A stretch of 33,561 nucleotides of DNA. Source: Nitrospirota bacterium (lineage in GTDB: Bacteria; Nitrospirota; Thermodesulfovibrionia; Thermodesulfovibrionales; SM23-35). Below are positions 9,253-15,655 of this stretch, in pieces (positions within the stretch are counted from its first letter, which is position 1; each line of letters begins with the position of its first letter). The notes beneath the pieces are model-generated. The model did no database searches. It worked only from the letters and a program-made list of their open reading frames with translations, and was not told the DNA's origin. The position numbers and the translations under genes are program-made. The DNA is taken from contig JACAFE010000029.1 in NCBI GenBank assembly GCA_013388435.1, positions 1-33,561 of the forward strand, read 5' to 3'.

Positions 9253-10989
9253 ATGGGCAATTGCAAAAAACAATCTTATGCCACAATTAACGAAGTCCCA
9301 AATTTGCAGGATATAAAAATCTTTTCAGCACTGGTTGACCTTCCACGCGATATTCTAATTGCAGAGGGTATTGAAGAAATCTCTTTAACTATTCTCAATC
9401 ATGCAAAAAATCTTACAAATAGCAGATTCGGGTTCGTCGGTTACATAGACCCTCTTACAAATTATCTTGTCAGTCCAACACTTACTACTGAAATATGGGA
9501 TAATTGTAAGATAAAAGATAAAAATTACATCTTCAAGGAATTCAAAGGATTATGGGGATGGGTTCTTTTGAATAAACAACCTTTGCTTACCAATAACCCA
9601 TCTTCTGACCCCCGTTCAACAGGAATCCCGGAAGGACATATAATAATTGAAAATTTTCTGTCTGTTCCTGCAATGATAAAAGATGAACTTGTTGGCCAAA
9701 TATCTCTTGCCAATTCAAGCAGAGATTATAATGAGCAAGATATTGTTACTTTACAACAGATTGCATCTCTTTATGCAATTGCAATCAATAGAAAAAGAGC
9801 AGAAGAAAAACTTGTTCAGAGTCTTGAAGCTTTGCAGGCTGTATATAATATTGCAACAACACTTCGTGGTTCTTATGAAATGCTATGTGAACAGGTTGTT
9901 TTTAATCTCGCAAAATTTCTCAAAATTGCCTGTGTTTCTGTTCAACATATTAAAGAAGATAAAATTACAATAGTCTCAAAAATATGCGATGGCATTCTTT
10001 CCCATAATGAAATAGAATCGTTAAGTGAATCTCCTTGTTCCGAGGCTATTGAAGCAAGAAAACCTTTGCAGTTTATTATGAAAGATCAGGGAAAATTTCC
10101 ATTGTATAAAAAATTTAAGAGCTGTATGCTTGCTCCGATTCTTATAGAGGGAGAAACAAAGGGTTTTATATGCGCGATGGACTACTCTGACAGAAAATTC
10201 AATGAAGATGAATTGAGACTTCTTGAGATATTCTCAAAGCATATTTCTTATGAATTAGAACGTATAGAGATGGAGAAAAAGCTAAGACACCTTGATAAAA
10301 TGAAACTTCTCGGACAGCTCGCTGCAGGAGTTGCCCACGAGGTTAGAAATCCGCTTAATGCAATTCTTGCCATTGCTGAAGCACTATTTCAGGATATTAA
10401 AGATATAGGGGAAAACCCTGATTATTACAAACCTTTTTTAAATCATATTAGAAGCCAGGTAGATCGCCTATCAAACCTGATGTCAGATCTTCTCGATCTC
10501 GGGAAACCGATTAAACAGGAAACCTTCCAGAAGGAATACCTGCCGGAAATATGTCTTGCAACAATTGATCTATGGAAACAGATGCCTATATCCAGAGACT
10601 ATAAAATAATTTTTATCCAACCGGAAGAAAAAGAAAAGTTATATTTAATGGCTGATAGTTCACGTTTACAACAGGTTTTTCTTAACGTGCTTGAAAATGC
10701 ATGCCATCACAGTCCCAGGGGAAGCGATATACAATTCGTCATTCTAAATCCTAAAGGAGGGTTTATTAAAATACATATTATTGACCAGGGAACGGGTGTG
10801 CCGTCTGAGAACCTTTCAAAGGTTTTCGAACCTTTCTTTACTTCCCGTAAAAAGGGAACAGGTCTTGGCTTAAGTCTGGTAAAACATATTGTACAATCAC
10901 ATGGGGGCGAAGTTACAATTTGGAACAATACACCACCTCCAGGATGCACTATTGAAATAACTTTACCTTTATTTAAAGGGGAAGAATAA
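9253..10989 (+). CDS. Cytoplasmic histidine kinase with two GAF domains
   Basis: This is the sensor of a two-component system. Residues about 20-185 form a GAF domain of the type carrying LWGWVLLNKQPLLTN and SVPA; about 190-335 form a second GAF domain. A short coiled coil leads to HisKA with the phospho-accepting H362 in GVAHEVRNPLNA. The HATPase part has the N box (NVLENACHHSPRG, about 478-490), G1 DQGTGVP (511-517), F box FEPFFTS and G2 GTGLGLSL (535-542). No membrane segment is visible, so the signal should be cytoplasmic; GAF ligands can be cyclic nucleotides, haem, NO-type gases or small metabolites, not readable here. The stop overlaps the regulator's ATG by one base. No clear Shine-Dalgarno precedes the ATG. 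Confidence 0.92.
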   Translation: MGNCKKQSYATINEVPNLQDIKIFSALVDLPRDILIAEGIEEISLTILNHAKNLTNSRFGFVGYIDPLTNYLVSPTLTTEIWDNCKIKDKNYIFKEFKGLWGWVLLNKQPLLTNNPSSDPRSTGIPEGHIIIENFLSVPAMIKDELVGQISLANSSRDYNEQDIVTLQQIASLYAIAINRKRAEEKLVQSLEALQAVYNIATTLRGSYEMLCEQVVFNLAKFLKIACVSVQHIKEDKITIVSKICDGILSHNEIESLSESPCSEAIEARKPLQFIMKDQGKFPLYKKFKSCMLAPILIEGETKGFICAMDYSDRKFNEDELRLLEIFSKHISYELERIEMEKKLRHLDKMKLLGQLAAGVAHEVRNPLNAILAIAEALFQDIKDIGENPDYYKPFLNHIRSQVDRLSNLMSDLLDLGKPIKQETFQKEYLPEICLATIDLWKQMPISRDYKIIFIQPEEKEKLYLMADSSRLQQVFLNVLENACHHSPRGSDIQFVILNPKGGFIKIHIIDQGTGVPSENLSKVFEPFFTSRKKGTGLGLSLVKHIVQSHGGEVTIWNNTPPPGCTIEITLPLFKGEE

Positions 10990-12350
10990 TGAATCCCAAA
11001 ATTCTTTTAATTGATGACGAAGAAGCCACAAGGTTTGGTTTCTCTCGCTATCTTTCAAAGGCAGGTTATTTAGTTCACGAAGCAGCAAATCTTTTTGAAG
11101 CCAAAGAATCAATTAACTCCCAGAGGTATGATGCTGTATTGCTCGATGTAAATCTTCCAGATGGAAGCGGATTGGATTGGATAATAGAGATACGACAAAG
11201 TTACCCTGATATACCCATTGTTGTTATTACAGGTTATGGAGATATTCCTGTTGCTGTTGAAGCCATGAGGCGCGGGGCAGATAATTTTCTTACAAAACCT
11301 GTAAACATGGCTGATCTCGAAGTTTTTTTAAGAAAAAGCCTTGAAATTGGTTCGTTGAGAAGAAGACAATTAATAGATAAAAGATTATCAAAAAAAACTC
11401 AGATATATTTCGGTGAAAGCCCGGGCATGAAAAAAGTCCTTGAACTCGCTCAACTTGCTGCCCGAAATGAGTCACCTGTTGTCATATCCGGGGAGACAGG
11501 CTCTGGTAAAGGTGTGCTTGCAAAATGGCTCCATGAAAATAGTTTGCGTAGCTCATCTTCATATGTTGAGGTCAATTGCTCTAATTTACGGGGAGATTTA
11601 CTTGCAAGCGAATTATTCGGACATGCCAAAGGAGCTTTTACTTCAGCTATTCAGGAAAAACAGGGACTTATTGAAGTTGCAGATGGAGGTACTCTTTTCC
11701 TTGATGAAATTGGAGATATGGATATAAGTGTCCAGGCGCAGTTTCTTAAGGTTGTCGAGGAAAAACGGTATCGCCGTCTCGGAGAGGTAAAAACAAGAAG
11801 CAGTGATTTTAGACTTATTTGCGCAACAAATAGAGATCTCCTCGACGCTATAACGAAAGGAACTTTTAGAAAGGATTTATATTATAGGATAAATGTTTTA
11901 CCGATTGTAATACCTCCTTTGAGAAAAAGGCCGGAAGATATTCCCGGACTCGTTGAACATATAATAAGAACTTTAAGTCCTCAACCCGTTGAAATAAGTG
12001 CTGATGTTATGAGATTACTACAGGAATATTCCTGGCCCGGCAATATAAGAGAATTGAAAAATTTCCTTGAGAGAGCTTTATTGCTTTCTCATGGAAATCA
12101 ATTAACAACAGAACATTTTTATGGGCTTGAACCTGTAAGGTCAGAAGTTTCACCAAAATCTCAAGGCAAATATCCTGATATAGAAGAATCTCAGATTCGT
12201 ACTGTTTTGAAGAGATTTCATGGAGATACTGCCAGGGCAGCTAAAGAACTCGGTATTTCAAGGGCTACACTTTACCGAAAACTTAAGAAATTCAGGATAA
12301 CACCTGAAATAACTTTTAACTCAATTTCTGAAGAAGAAGAAGAAATATAA
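10989..12350 (+). CDS. NtrC-family sigma-54-dependent response regulator
   Basis: The 453-residue protein has a receiver domain with phospho-acceptor D53 and switch residues T81 and K103. A sigma-54 AAA+ domain follows (about 135-370) with Walker A GETGSGKG (168-175) and Walker B LFLDE (236-240). A Fis-type helix-turn-helix lies at about 400-437. The sigma-54 contact loop reads GAFTSA (215-220) instead of GAFTGA. A good ribosome site (AAAGGGGAAG) sits in the end of the kinase gene, and the 1-bp overlap makes this its cognate regulator with little doubt. The likely target is the sigma-54 promoter at 12522-12537, about 170 bp downstream of its stop. Confidence 0.95.
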   Translation: MNPKILLIDDEEATRFGFSRYLSKAGYLVHEAANLFEAKESINSQRYDAVLLDVNLPDGSGLDWIIEIRQSYPDIPIVVITGYGDIPVAVEAMRRGADNFLTKPVNMADLEVFLRKSLEIGSLRRRQLIDKRLSKKTQIYFGESPGMKKVLELAQLAARNESPVVISGETGSGKGVLAKWLHENSLRSSSSYVEVNCSNLRGDLLASELFGHAKGAFTSAIQEKQGLIEVADGGTLFLDEIGDMDISVQAQFLKVVEEKRYRRLGEVKTRSSDFRLICATNRDLLDAITKGTFRKDLYYRINVLPIVIPPLRKRPEDIPGLVEHIIRTLSPQPVEISADVMRLLQEYSWPGNIRELKNFLERALLLSHGNQLTTEHFYGLEPVRSEVSPKSQGKYPDIEESQIRTVLKRFHGDTARAAKELGISRATLYRKLKKFRITPEITFNSISEEEEEI

Positions 12351-12355
12351 AACAT

Positions 12356-12383
12356 AGTGAACTCAGTGAACACAGTGTTCACT
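12356..12383. promoter_or_regulatory. Palindrome within 9-bp units just after the regulator gene
   Basis: The perfect palindrome AGTGAACACAGTGTTCACT lies at 12365-12383, inside three 9-bp units starting at 12356. It begins 15 bp after the regulator's core stop and could fold in RNA as a weak terminator, although only TTTG follows. An operator role is the alternative. The unit resembles the 9-bp units of the big intergenic repeats (AATGAACGC). Confidence 0.4.
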
Positions 12384-12411
12384 TTGTATGCTTAATCCGA
12401 AGTGCTCTCAC

Positions 12412-12459
12412 ATTCTCAATAATTCTCAATGCTGAGAATAAATTCTCAGAATTGAGAAT
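12412..12459 (+). promoter_or_regulatory. Upstream activator sites: two 18-bp palindromes plus a half-site
   Basis: ATTCTCAATGCTGAGAAT (12422-12439) and ATTCTCAGAATTGAGAAT (12442-12459) share identical 7-bp arms and differ only in the central four bases. Their centres are 20 bp apart, about two helical turns. A further left half-site ATTCTCA starts at 12412, 10 bp before the first. They lie 74-94 bp upstream of the -24 base, where enhancer sites of NtrC-type activators usually sit. Binding by the adjacent regulator is an inference. Confidence 0.75.
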
Positions 12460-12521
12460 TATTCAAACCCTGCAAATTTATAACTAATTGATTAATCTAT
12501 AAAATTCCACTCTTATTTATA

Positions 12522-12537
12522 TGGCATCACTTTTGCT
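12522..12537 (+). promoter_or_regulatory. Sigma-54 (-24/-12) promoter
   Basis: TGGCATCACTTTTGCT matches the consensus TGGCAC-N5-TTGCW at all but one base, with GG and GC correctly spaced. The predicted start is near 12548, giving a leader of about 42 nt before the ATG at 12590, with a GGGAG ribosome site in it. It drives the two-receiver/HEAT/four-helix operon. Confidence 0.85.
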
Positions 12538-12589: not shown

Positions 12590-12961
12590 ATGCAAAAACA
12601 GGTTCTTGTTGTTGATGATGAAGCAACTATACTTCTTGCTTTTAAAAAGATATTACAAAAGCCGGGAATTAATGTAGATACAGCAGAAAGTATTGACGAT
12701 GTGAAAGGACTTCTTAATAAGACATGTTATGATGCTGTAATTGCAGACCTTCGTCTTTCAGGAATATCAGGAGAAGAAGGACTTGAAGTTATACGTTTTG
12801 TAAAAGAATGTAACCCCGACACAAAGGTAATACTTATGACAGCATATGGAAGCCAGGATATAATGAAAAAAGCGTACAATCTTGGTGCGGCTTTTTATTT
12901 TGAAAAGCCGGTATCTGCTAATGTTCTAAAGGATGCATTAAAGAATCTGGGGGTAATATGA
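12590..12961 (+). CDS. Single-domain response regulator (CheY-like), first of a pair
   Basis: This is a 123-residue receiver domain with nothing attached. The acidic pair is DD at 9-10, the phospho-acceptor is D53 in VIADLRLSG, and the switch threonine (MTAYG) and lysine (FEKPV) are present. With no output domain it must act by protein contact or as a phosphate relay or sink. It is the first gene after the sigma-54 promoter. Its stop overlaps the next start (ATGA). Receivers ending just after KPV with helix 5 are typical of stand-alone regulators, so it is not a truncated gene. Confidence 0.92.
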   Translation: MQKQVLVVDDEATILLAFKKILQKPGINVDTAESIDDVKGLLNKTCYDAVIADLRLSGISGEEGLEVIRFVKECNPDTKVILMTAYGSQDIMKKAYNLGAAFYFEKPVSANVLKDALKNLGVI

Positions 12962-13410
12962 AAGAAATGATTAAAATCAGCGATAAGATTAGAAAAGTTT
13001 TAATAGTGGATGATTCGGAATTGCTTCACAGGATGTATGACCTTATCTTTTTCCGTTGTAGAAATAATGGAATAAAAATACTTCATGCATATGACGGTCA
13101 GGAGGCTCTCTCGAAACTATCGGAACATCCCGATACAGACCTCATTGTTCTCGATATTCATATGCCTGTCATGGATGGGCTTCAATTTTTAAGACATTGC
13201 AATAAAGAAAGAATACATCAGAAAATTCCTGTAATTGTGACCGGCACTCAAGGTAAAGAACAGGACACTATGGATGGGTTAAAAGCAGGTGCCCAGGGCT
13301 ATCTTATCAAGCCTTTTGAAACAGAGAATTTTTATAAAGTAATTAATAAAGTTTTTTATGAGAAACCTAAGGCAGCGCAAGAAACTGTTGAATTTTCTAA
13401 CCCATTTTAA
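12958..13410 (+). CDS. Single-domain response regulator, second of a pair
   Basis: This 150-residue protein has a short N-terminal lead (residues 1-11), a receiver domain with DD at 18-19, phospho-acceptor D66 in IVLDIHMPVMDG, the switch TGTQG and lysine KPF, and a 17-residue tail without a domain. It is closer to classic CheY than the preceding receiver, so the pair are not recent duplicates. A GGGGG ribosome site lies in the end of the upstream gene, and the 4-bp overlap couples the two. Its partner is likely within the operon (the HEAT protein) or a kinase elsewhere; this is inferred from context. Confidence 0.92.
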   Translation: MKEMIKISDKIRKVLIVDDSELLHRMYDLIFFRCRNNGIKILHAYDGQEALSKLSEHPDTDLIVLDIHMPVMDGLQFLRHCNKERIHQKIPVIVTGTQGKEQDTMDGLKAGAQGYLIKPFETENFYKVINKVFYEKPKAAQETVEFSNPF

Positions 13411-13440: not shown

Positions 13441-15294
13441 ATGAATAGATTAGCAATAGCAGGACACGATAAAATCAGGCAAAATATATTCTGGACAAAA
13501 ACATCTTCTGTTCAGCTTACTGAAGCATTAAATCTCCTTAATCATGAAAATTCAAAAATTGTTTTGAAAGCTGTTCAAACATTAAGAGAGATAAAAGATA
13601 TAAGAGCGCTTGAACCTTTAAGGATGTTATTAAAACATCCAGATCTGGAAGTGGTTAATGAAGTCATTCTTTCAATTGGTTCATTGGGAGATGAAAGAGT
13701 AATTTCTGATTTAATTCCTTTTCTTTACTCAGACCCTTTGTTTCAAACCTCTGCAATACAGGCTTTAAAAGAAATTCGCAGTCAATCAGCTATTGCTTAT
13801 CTTGAACAACTGCTCACTGATTCAATTGTTGGACCAATGGTCGCTGAAACAATAGCTTTTATCGGTGGTATAGCAGCATACAAAGTCCTTGCAAAACATT
13901 GGTTGAAATTTAGAGGTCAACTTGATACTGAAAATTATCTCAGTTTGCTCAAGTATGTGCTGGAAGGTATTAATTCACAAATTCCATCTATATCAGGAAT
14001 TTGTGAATCTTTCTCAATATACCTGAATGACCCTAATGATTCAATCCGAACCCTGGCTGCCTGCTGCATACTTGCTTCAGGCCCATATCCTGAAGACACA
14101 AAAGCATTAAACATAATTTCAGAGACATATAAAGATTATATTCAATTGCCTGCATGTTTAAAAAACAGAAGAGACCTTATTCCCAAACTTCTTAATGGGA
14201 ACGAAAAATTAATTTCATGGGGATTTCAGCTTTCAGCCTTATATCCAAAAAATATTTCTCCTCTGAATATTCTTAATGCTCTAAAAAAATATACAGATGA
14301 ATCAGATGATATTAATTATATTGCAGAGGTTCTACTTAAGATTAAAGATCCAATACTGGCGCCAGCCATTCTTGATCTGTATTGTAAAATTCCATGGCAT
14401 AAAAGAATAATTCTCCATCCTGTAATAAAAACTTACAAAAAACAAATTCGTTCACTATTAATTGACTATGATATTGATGATGAAACACGAATTGTAATTT
14501 CTGCATACATCGGCGTCTCCCCTGTATGTATTGCTCTTGAAATAATGGATTTGCCATTAGACAGTCGTATTCTTGTTTTGTCTCTTCTGACAGATTGCAA
14601 AGGTATCATGAAATGCATGCCATGGTCCCAATGGCTTGAAAATAGTCCGGGATTTTACTTAAATGTGGCTACAGAAGTTGCTTTGAAATCAGGGATTAAA
14701 GAAATTTTTCCTGTATTAAGAAAAGTATTGCCATCTTACCCTGTTAAGAGACTTATAAAATCAGCAGGAACGCTCAAAGATAAAGAAAGTGTCTCAATAC
14801 TTATAAAACATCTTGAATCTGAATCAACAGAAATAAGGATGCTCATTCTCGAGAGTCTTGGACATATTGGGGGAAAAGAAGCAAGGCAGGGGCTGAAAAA
14901 TTTTATAAAAAATTGCACAAAAAATGAGGAACTGCGTAAAGCAATCAGGTCGCTGTCACTTTGCGCAACATCAGAAGATTGTAGTTTCTTCAGAGAATTC
15001 TCCTCTAATTCTGATTGGTATTTCAGATTAATCTGTGCGGAGGTGCTCAGCCGTTATCCAAGCCCTGAAAATTTTGAAATACTTGTAAAATTATCCTCAG
15101 ACCCTGAAAAGATCGTTTCGCAACGATCTTCTTTTTTCCTCAAATATCTTCCTATGGGAAATTTTTTAACTTGCAAGGATAGAAACACTTTAGACAGTAA
15201 ATACCAAAATATCCAGGCAATTGCCATGCATAAAATTGAGTCTTATAAATATAATCATCAATTAAAGGAGCACCAAGATGTTACAGGAAATTAA
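13441..15294 (+). CDS. HEAT-repeat protein in a sigma-54-driven signalling operon
   Basis: This 617-residue helical-repeat protein has HEAT/PBS-lyase-like repeats that are clearest at about residues 24-125 (units such as ALEPLRMLLKHPDLEVVNEV and RVISDLIPFLYSD) and at 430-500 (SVSILIKHLESESTEIRMLI, SLGHIGG). The middle is more diverged but still looks all-helical. It has no signal peptide, membrane helix, catalytic motif or receiver domain. HEAT proteins act as scaffolds or adaptors, so it may bind the receivers encoded just upstream. That is inference. It starts 30 bp after the second receiver, and its end overlaps the next gene by 17 bp. The exact family is not recognised. Confidence 0.8.
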   Translation: MNRLAIAGHDKIRQNIFWTKTSSVQLTEALNLLNHENSKIVLKAVQTLREIKDIRALEPLRMLLKHPDLEVVNEVILSIGSLGDERVISDLIPFLYSDPLFQTSAIQALKEIRSQSAIAYLEQLLTDSIVGPMVAETIAFIGGIAAYKVLAKHWLKFRGQLDTENYLSLLKYVLEGINSQIPSISGICESFSIYLNDPNDSIRTLAACCILASGPYPEDTKALNIISETYKDYIQLPACLKNRRDLIPKLLNGNEKLISWGFQLSALYPKNISPLNILNALKKYTDESDDINYIAEVLLKIKDPILAPAILDLYCKIPWHKRIILHPVIKTYKKQIRSLLIDYDIDDETRIVISAYIGVSPVCIALEIMDLPLDSRILVLSLLTDCKGIMKCMPWSQWLENSPGFYLNVATEVALKSGIKEIFPVLRKVLPSYPVKRLIKSAGTLKDKESVSILIKHLESESTEIRMLILESLGHIGGKEARQGLKNFIKNCTKNEELRKAIRSLSLCATSEDCSFFREFSSNSDWYFRLICAEVLSRYPSPENFEILVKLSSDPEKIVSQRSSFFLKYLPMGNFLTCKDRNTLDSKYQNIQAIAMHKIESYKYNHQLKEHQDVTGN

Positions 15295-15655
15295 AAAAGA
15301 AAACGAGCATATTGATTTTGAACTTTACAGATTTGTTTTTGAGACTGCTGTCGAAATTTTTGAAGAGATATTTGAAACATCAAAAAGATTCCCTCGCGAG
15401 AAGATTTTTCTTATTGATCAGTTACGCAGACACTCAAAACTCGTCTGTATTAATCTTGCTGAGGCATGGAGAGCAAAGAAAGATAAAGATATATTTCTGG
15501 ATAAAATATCTGAAGCAGCACAGGAAGCATCCAGAGTACAAAATTGTCTTAAATTTGCTGTTAAATGCAAATTTTTAGGCAATGATGTTTATAGAAAACT
15601 TGATTCTAAATACGAAGATATTTTTGAAATGCTCTGCGACGGCGTAAGAACTTAA
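15278..15655 (+). CDS. Four-helix-bundle protein of the 23S rRNA-intervening-sequence/Avd-like family
   Basis: This 125-residue protein matches the small four-helix-bundle family first known from ORFs in 23S rRNA intervening sequences and related to the Avd proteins of diversity-generating retroelements. The hallmark stretch is visible: TSKRFPREKIFLIDQLRRHS, then CINLAEAWRAKKDKD. The family forms ring-like oligomers with basic surfaces; its role outside rRNA inserts is poorly known. Here it lies in a signalling operon, overlaps the HEAT gene by 17 bp and has its own strong AAGGAG at 8 nt. No reverse transcriptase or rRNA gene is in the window, so neither classic context applies. Confidence 0.82.
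   Translation: MLQEIKKENEHIDFELYRFVFETAVEIFEEIFETSKRFPREKIFLIDQLRRHSKLVCINLAEAWRAKKDKDIFLDKISEAAQEASRVQNCLKFAVKCKFLGNDVYRKLDSKYEDIFEMLCDGVRT

Follow-up and report, generated by a model that had tools for sequence, protein, structure and literature searches.

Introduction

In Myxococcus xanthus, the kinase and NtrC-like regulator pair CrdS/CrdA is tied to the chemosensory gene cluster Che3. For NtrC-type activators more generally, sigma-54 regulons have been reconstructed in Desulfovibrio (PMC4641369) and in Clostridiales (PMC6615313). The first study reports that the majority of promoters lie no more than 100 nt from the nearest activator site, and the second describes multiple upstream activating sequence (UAS) sites for many groups. 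The half-site TGAGA, which is central to what follows, was not found in the main texts of these two papers. Literature searches found no paper on the regulator or the motif described here.

The window, a 33,561-nucleotide stretch of a Nitrospirota genome, carries paired palindromes between a kinase and response-regulator gene pair and a gene for a stand-alone receiver, REC1 (Table 1). We propose, with a probability of about 0.9, that these palindromes are the enhancer (UAS) through which the adjacent NtrC-family regulator drives the sigma-54 promoter at 12522.

Table 1. Features of the regulator locus, in window coordinates.
Feature	Position	Strand	Basis or remark
GAF-GAF-HisKA-HATPase histidine kinase, presumed to partner the regulator	9253..10989	+	Pfam; orthologue precedes regulator in relatives
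Response regulator of the NtrC family with receiver, AAA+ sigma-54 activator and Fis-type HTH domains and a GAFTSA loop; proposed to bind the sites	10989..12350	+	Pfam, translation, clade support 100/100
Half-site ATTCTCA	12412..12418	+	10 bp before palindrome 1; sequence, kept in sister genome
Palindrome 1, ATTCTCA-ATGC-TGAGAAT, candidate upstream activating site	12422..12439	.	Core start 98 bp before sigma-54 promoter, as in relatives
Palindrome 2, ATTCTCA-GAAT-TGAGAAT, candidate upstream activating site	12442..12459	.	Core start 78 bp before sigma-54 promoter, as in relatives
Sigma-54 promoter (-24/-12), TGGCAT-N5-TTGCT, TGGCATCACTTTTGCT	12522..12537	+	Perfect consensus, kept in sister genome
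REC1, stand-alone receiver, first gene of proposed controlled operon	12590..12961	+	Pfam PF00072; orthologue after regulator in many relatives
REC2, second stand-alone CheY-like receiver	12958..13410	+	Pfam PF00072; sister genome 86%
HEAT-repeat protein, probable operon member	13441..15294	+	Pfam; same order in G002, G010
Four-helix-bundle protein (23S_rRNA_IVP family), probable operon member	15278..15655	+	Pfam; same neighbourhood in G002, G010, G014

Results

Paired palindromes precede a sigma-54 promoter

An earlier note, made from the letters of the window, had described two 18-bp palindromes with identical arms, ATTCTCA-N4-TGAGAAT, together with a half-site, the left arms starting at 12412, 12422 and 12442. 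This description is exact, letter for letter: positions 12412-12459 read as the half-site, then ATA, palindrome 1, AA and palindrome 2. A single such palindrome has little meaning because perfect 7-N4-7 inverted repeats occur about five times per simulated window of the same dinucleotide content. A pair with the same arms within 60 bp, as a comparison, was seen in 0 of 60 simulated windows. Palindromes 1 and 2 are nearly reverse complements of each other and so jointly build an inverted repeat with 22-nt arms (12418-12439 / 12442-12463). Conservation of the half-site was seen in the sister genome only, so that it may be accessory. Separately, a second palindromic stretch (12352-12387, core AGTGAACACAGTGTTCACT) lies between the stop codon of the regulator and these sites; its exact copy is unique in the genome and it is absent from the sister genome.

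A reading of the palindromes as activator sites predicts a nearby sigma-54 promoter, and a perfect consensus begins 62 bp past palindrome 2. It is one of 19 perfect TGGCAY-N5-TTGCW matches genome-wide, with GG-N10-GC downstream of the sites, and transcription would be expected to start at about 12548. Sigma-54 itself is encoded in the genome (rpoN; PF04552 at G000:C44:60468, E 3e-60).

The motif marks three promoters in the genome

Pattern searches of the 2.15 Mb genome returned exact copies of ATTCTCA-N4-TGAGAAT at the window locus and at C17:16576 only. A second pair at 20-bp spacing, with one mismatch per member, lies at C53:12865/12885. The core TCTCA-N4-TGAGA occurs at five loci genome-wide, three of which are upstream of a perfect sigma-54 promoter; the other two fall inside long open frames. 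By a simple binomial estimate, the chance is approximately 1e-8 that three of five core loci would be no further than about 110 bp from one of the 19 perfect promoters, and the three loci were found without use of gene positions. The proposal that scanning for the motif near sigma-54 promoters would expose a regulon thus held, with the window operon, C17 and C53 as its members. At C17 the target gene encodes a double-PilZ protein; at C53 it encodes an isochorismatase-like protein that appears, from reading its N-terminus by eye, to be exported. Both genes should be activated by the same regulator. A one-mismatch copy on C56 and a core copy on C18 were rejected as regulatory sites and judged to be chance matches because they are inside long open frames without promoters.

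The sister genome (G002, the same as L044) has all three loci with both motif and promoter. At the window locus, not one of the 14 arm bases differs in either palindrome and the half-site is kept as well, and the spacers have diverged (ATGC to TCCT in one, GAAT to AAGA in the other). Fixed arms with changed spacers are the pattern expected of protein-binding sites. At the C53 locus, the pair is kept at its 20-bp spacing with a few arm differences. At C17, the palindrome is kept and an extra half-site that follows it is not.

Identical, repeated arms are also what a dispersed REP or MITE-like palindromic element without a regulatory role would show. Instead of many copies, there are three intergenic loci in 2.15 Mb, each before a sigma-54 promoter. 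Moreover, the spacers at the window locus diverge around fixed arms, and an exact copy was present at 0 of 69 loci of regulator paralogues. Copy number and placement therefore disfavour such an element, and we regard its likelihood as close to negligible.

Several side observations concern these two genomes. In the sister genome, G002:C45:27657 (L208:1658) carries ATTCTCATTTTTGAGAAT followed by GAGAATG repeats, before what we read as a nucleotidyltransferase-like/HEPN-like gene pair; it sits downstream of a sigma-54-like match and was not counted. The sister contig L044 (DYFC01000006.1) is titled Nitrospira japonica and belongs to a genus-mate of the window genome; from its gene content and relatives, this species label may be wrong. 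At C53, the leader of about 200 nt from the sigma-54 promoter to the isochorismatase-like gene (L012:8002-8160) is well conserved with the sister genome. It has helices in which three pair changes are two-sided, against a protein identity of only 50%, and a search of Rfam gave no match to this leader. It is a possible structured leader RNA.

Folding of the region as RNA

Because the palindromes come after the stop codon of the regulator, they could instead act in RNA, as the hairpin of a terminator or attenuator. The RNA from 12405 to 12470 does fold strongly (-22.6 kcal/mol, z -7.5). However, the putative hairpin lacks the T-run of an intrinsic terminator, and a terminator scan reported nothing there. 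The copy at C17 stands in the gap between two divergent genes, which is not a place where transcripts end. In addition, the spacers vary freely and the position of the sites is fixed relative to the sigma-54 promoter, not to the upstream stop codon. The earlier note had itself raised a genome-wide terminator as one challenge to its reading, and the motif is not a dispersed terminator. The missing T-run, the C17 copy and the fixed distance to the promoter make a terminator or attenuator role very improbable. A search of Rfam gave no known RNA for the region.

Sites are conserved with regulator orthologues

We scanned 230 genomes of the class for the core together with a promoter, irrespective of genes. 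Seven genomes gave matches, and in five of these one match lies directly 3' of a regulator orthologue. We gathered 30 clade members from the named genomes and from 395 genomes of the phylum. They come mainly from Nitrospirota and represent several orders and phyla; G081 (= L046, Nitrospirota) is of the same order as the window genome and G250 (= L047, Nitrospirae) of the same phylum. The clade split from controls with 100/100 support, which is a consistency check only because members were picked by identity.

An exact TCTCA-N3/4-TGAGA was present within 450 bp downstream of the gene in 16 of 30 clade members compared with 0 of 69 paralogue controls (Fisher p ~1e-10, a value inflated by related rows). 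When up to one mismatch was allowed in the same 450 bp, the counts were 20/30 and 3/69. Core starts cluster at -98 and -78 relative to the promoter in lineages that include Nitrospirota families f1, f2, f12 and f25. In L158 (Chitinispirillales) this pair sits nearer the promoter, at -76 and -55; L153 (Fischerbacteria) carries a single imperfect copy, at -76. Paired sites are spaced 18-21 bp apart, the exception being a 24-bp spacing at one G304 locus (L190), where a search for a promoter match found none. Several members retain only the promoter-side half of the second site, and some have one full palindrome plus a half-site. As a point against the proposal, no recognisable site was found downstream of the gene in the clade members L188, L191 and L193, among others. 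Overall, this agrees with what is expected of an NtrC-type unit, namely inverted-repeat sites approximately 80-150 bp upstream and conserved with the activator.

In G307, motif and promoter lie upstream of a REC1-like gene, away from the regulator. In G015, two cores 21 bp apart precede a promoter-like site with no clear downstream gene; a regulator orthologue was not detected there either. Further motif matches occur in G319 and G155. A match in G013 falls within a coding frame and was rejected as a regulatory site.

The contact loop and the recognition helix

The regulator matched PF00072, PF00158 and PF02954, all above cut-off. Its sigma-54 contact loop (L1) is GAFTSA instead of GAFTGA, a point against the proposed role. 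In 29 of 30 clade members the loop is GAFTSA, GSFTSA, GAFTTA or GSFTTA, the second G being replaced by S or T, whereas controls commonly have GAFTGA. PMC6615313 reports that activation is compatible with other loop variants, and GAFTSA would count as an accepted loop variant for an NtrC-type activator.

Three members of one subclade (L194, L195 and L198) have the recognition helix SQATLYRR instead of a SRATLYRK-type helix. Downstream of their genes, TGATA/TATCA half-sites number four or five, and TGAGA/TCTCA occurs no more than once. By contrast, TGAGA/TCTCA half-sites go with most SRAT members and with one SLSS member. Arginine reads G and glutamine reads A in standard recognition chemistry, and by this chemistry the joint change of helix and site supports the regulator as the binder. 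A search for further members of the SQAT subclade found no additional ones. The link between SQAT and TGATA represents one evolutionary event, and as a tie between regulator and sites it is only suggestive.

These data bear on whether another Fis-type activator or a repressor occupies the sites, the neighbouring regulator being a bystander. There is room for such a protein, since nine or more sigma-54 activators besides this one are encoded in the genome. Against this, the sites accompany orthologues of the regulator, not its paralogues, in several orders and phyla, and the motif shifts where the recognition helix shifts. We consider a different binder improbable. The sites are better tied to the adjacent regulator because they are conserved beside its orthologues across these lineages and because the motif apparently changes with the recognition helix.

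Genes downstream of the regulator

In most of the relatives examined, the regulator is followed by a REC1 orthologue (43-93% identity). Further along, the G161 operon carries CheW, Cache, chemoreceptor and CheR genes, and the G164 operon STAS and CheA. One G250 locus has a chemoreceptor and CheW, and the G304 operon has EAL, CheW and a chemoreceptor. An EAL protein is encoded in the G028 and G081 operons and CheA in that of G011. In the window genome, the operon has the receivers, HEAT and four-helix-bundle genes, and the PilZ protein is encoded elsewhere. From this gene content, the regulated theme is likely chemosensory and c-di-GMP signalling. As a separate observation, kdsC-pgsA-plsY-like genes follow the regulator-receiver operon in family members (L012 and L224-L226 compared). 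In the window genome they are at C53, behind the isochorismatase-like gene that bears its own copy of the sites, which suggests a split or duplicated operon.

Discussion

The sites, the promoter, their conserved spacing, the co-occurrence with regulator orthologues and the three-member regulon can be read from the DNA directly. They suggest the following model. The kinase would phosphorylate the regulator, whose dimers would dock via the Fis-type HTH onto both palindromes. These lie two helical turns apart on one helix face, and the half-site possibly helps docking. An AAA+ ring would then assemble, loop to the sigma-54 RNA polymerase at the TGGCAT-N5-TTGCT promoter and open it, giving transcripts of the two receivers, HEAT and four-helix-bundle genes. 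The same regulator would switch on the double-PilZ and the exported isochorismatase-like genes. Here we infer that the regulator binds physically, oligomerises and loops the DNA, and we likewise infer the signal and whether regulation is positive. That binding is cooperative and the regulator a hexamer, as the earlier note had also put forward, is predicted from the spacing and from knowledge of the family.

In a broader proposal, two-component sigma-54 activators with a GAFTSA loop and the site TCTCA-N3/4-TGAGA form an unnamed family. Across Nitrospirota and some other phyla, its members would control stand-alone receivers, chemosensory arrays and c-di-GMP proteins, and one Arg/Gln position of the recognition helix would set a TGAGA versus a TGATA half-site. 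We give this proposal even odds. Since the helix change and the site change co-occur, the family offers a natural test of DNA choice by a Fis-type HTH.

The locus appears to be a conserved but fairly ordinary gene switch, the controlled genes of which can now be listed. For a signalling system of bacteria that are mostly uncultured, the analysis yields a usable predicted binding motif and a regulon of three operons, and it delimits a set of orthologues. It also suggests that the system may set expression of chemosensory and c-di-GMP proteins.

Among known systems, CrdS/CrdA-Che3 may be similar in having a kinase and an NtrC-like regulator tied to chemosensory genes; the window operon itself has receivers, with no CheA or CheW alongside. 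Among solved structures, the regulator's best full-length and near-full-length relatives by sequence are NtrC-family regulators of the Aquifex type (PDB 4l4u, 1ny5), a general family resemblance only. The system described here differs from the surveyed NtrC-type regulons in its GAFTSA L1 loop and in its clade being mainly in Nitrospirota. As is often the case for NtrC-type enhancer-binding proteins, an AAA+ sigma-54 activator with a Fis-type HTH is encoded beside its target operon, with multiple sites and a -24/-12 promoter downstream of them. Judged by these sequence features, the arrangement qualifies as the pairing of an NtrC-type activator and its upstream activating sequence. Within a well-known type of system, the bacterial enhancer-binding proteins, the clade forms a new orthologous group that has an enhancer motif of its own.
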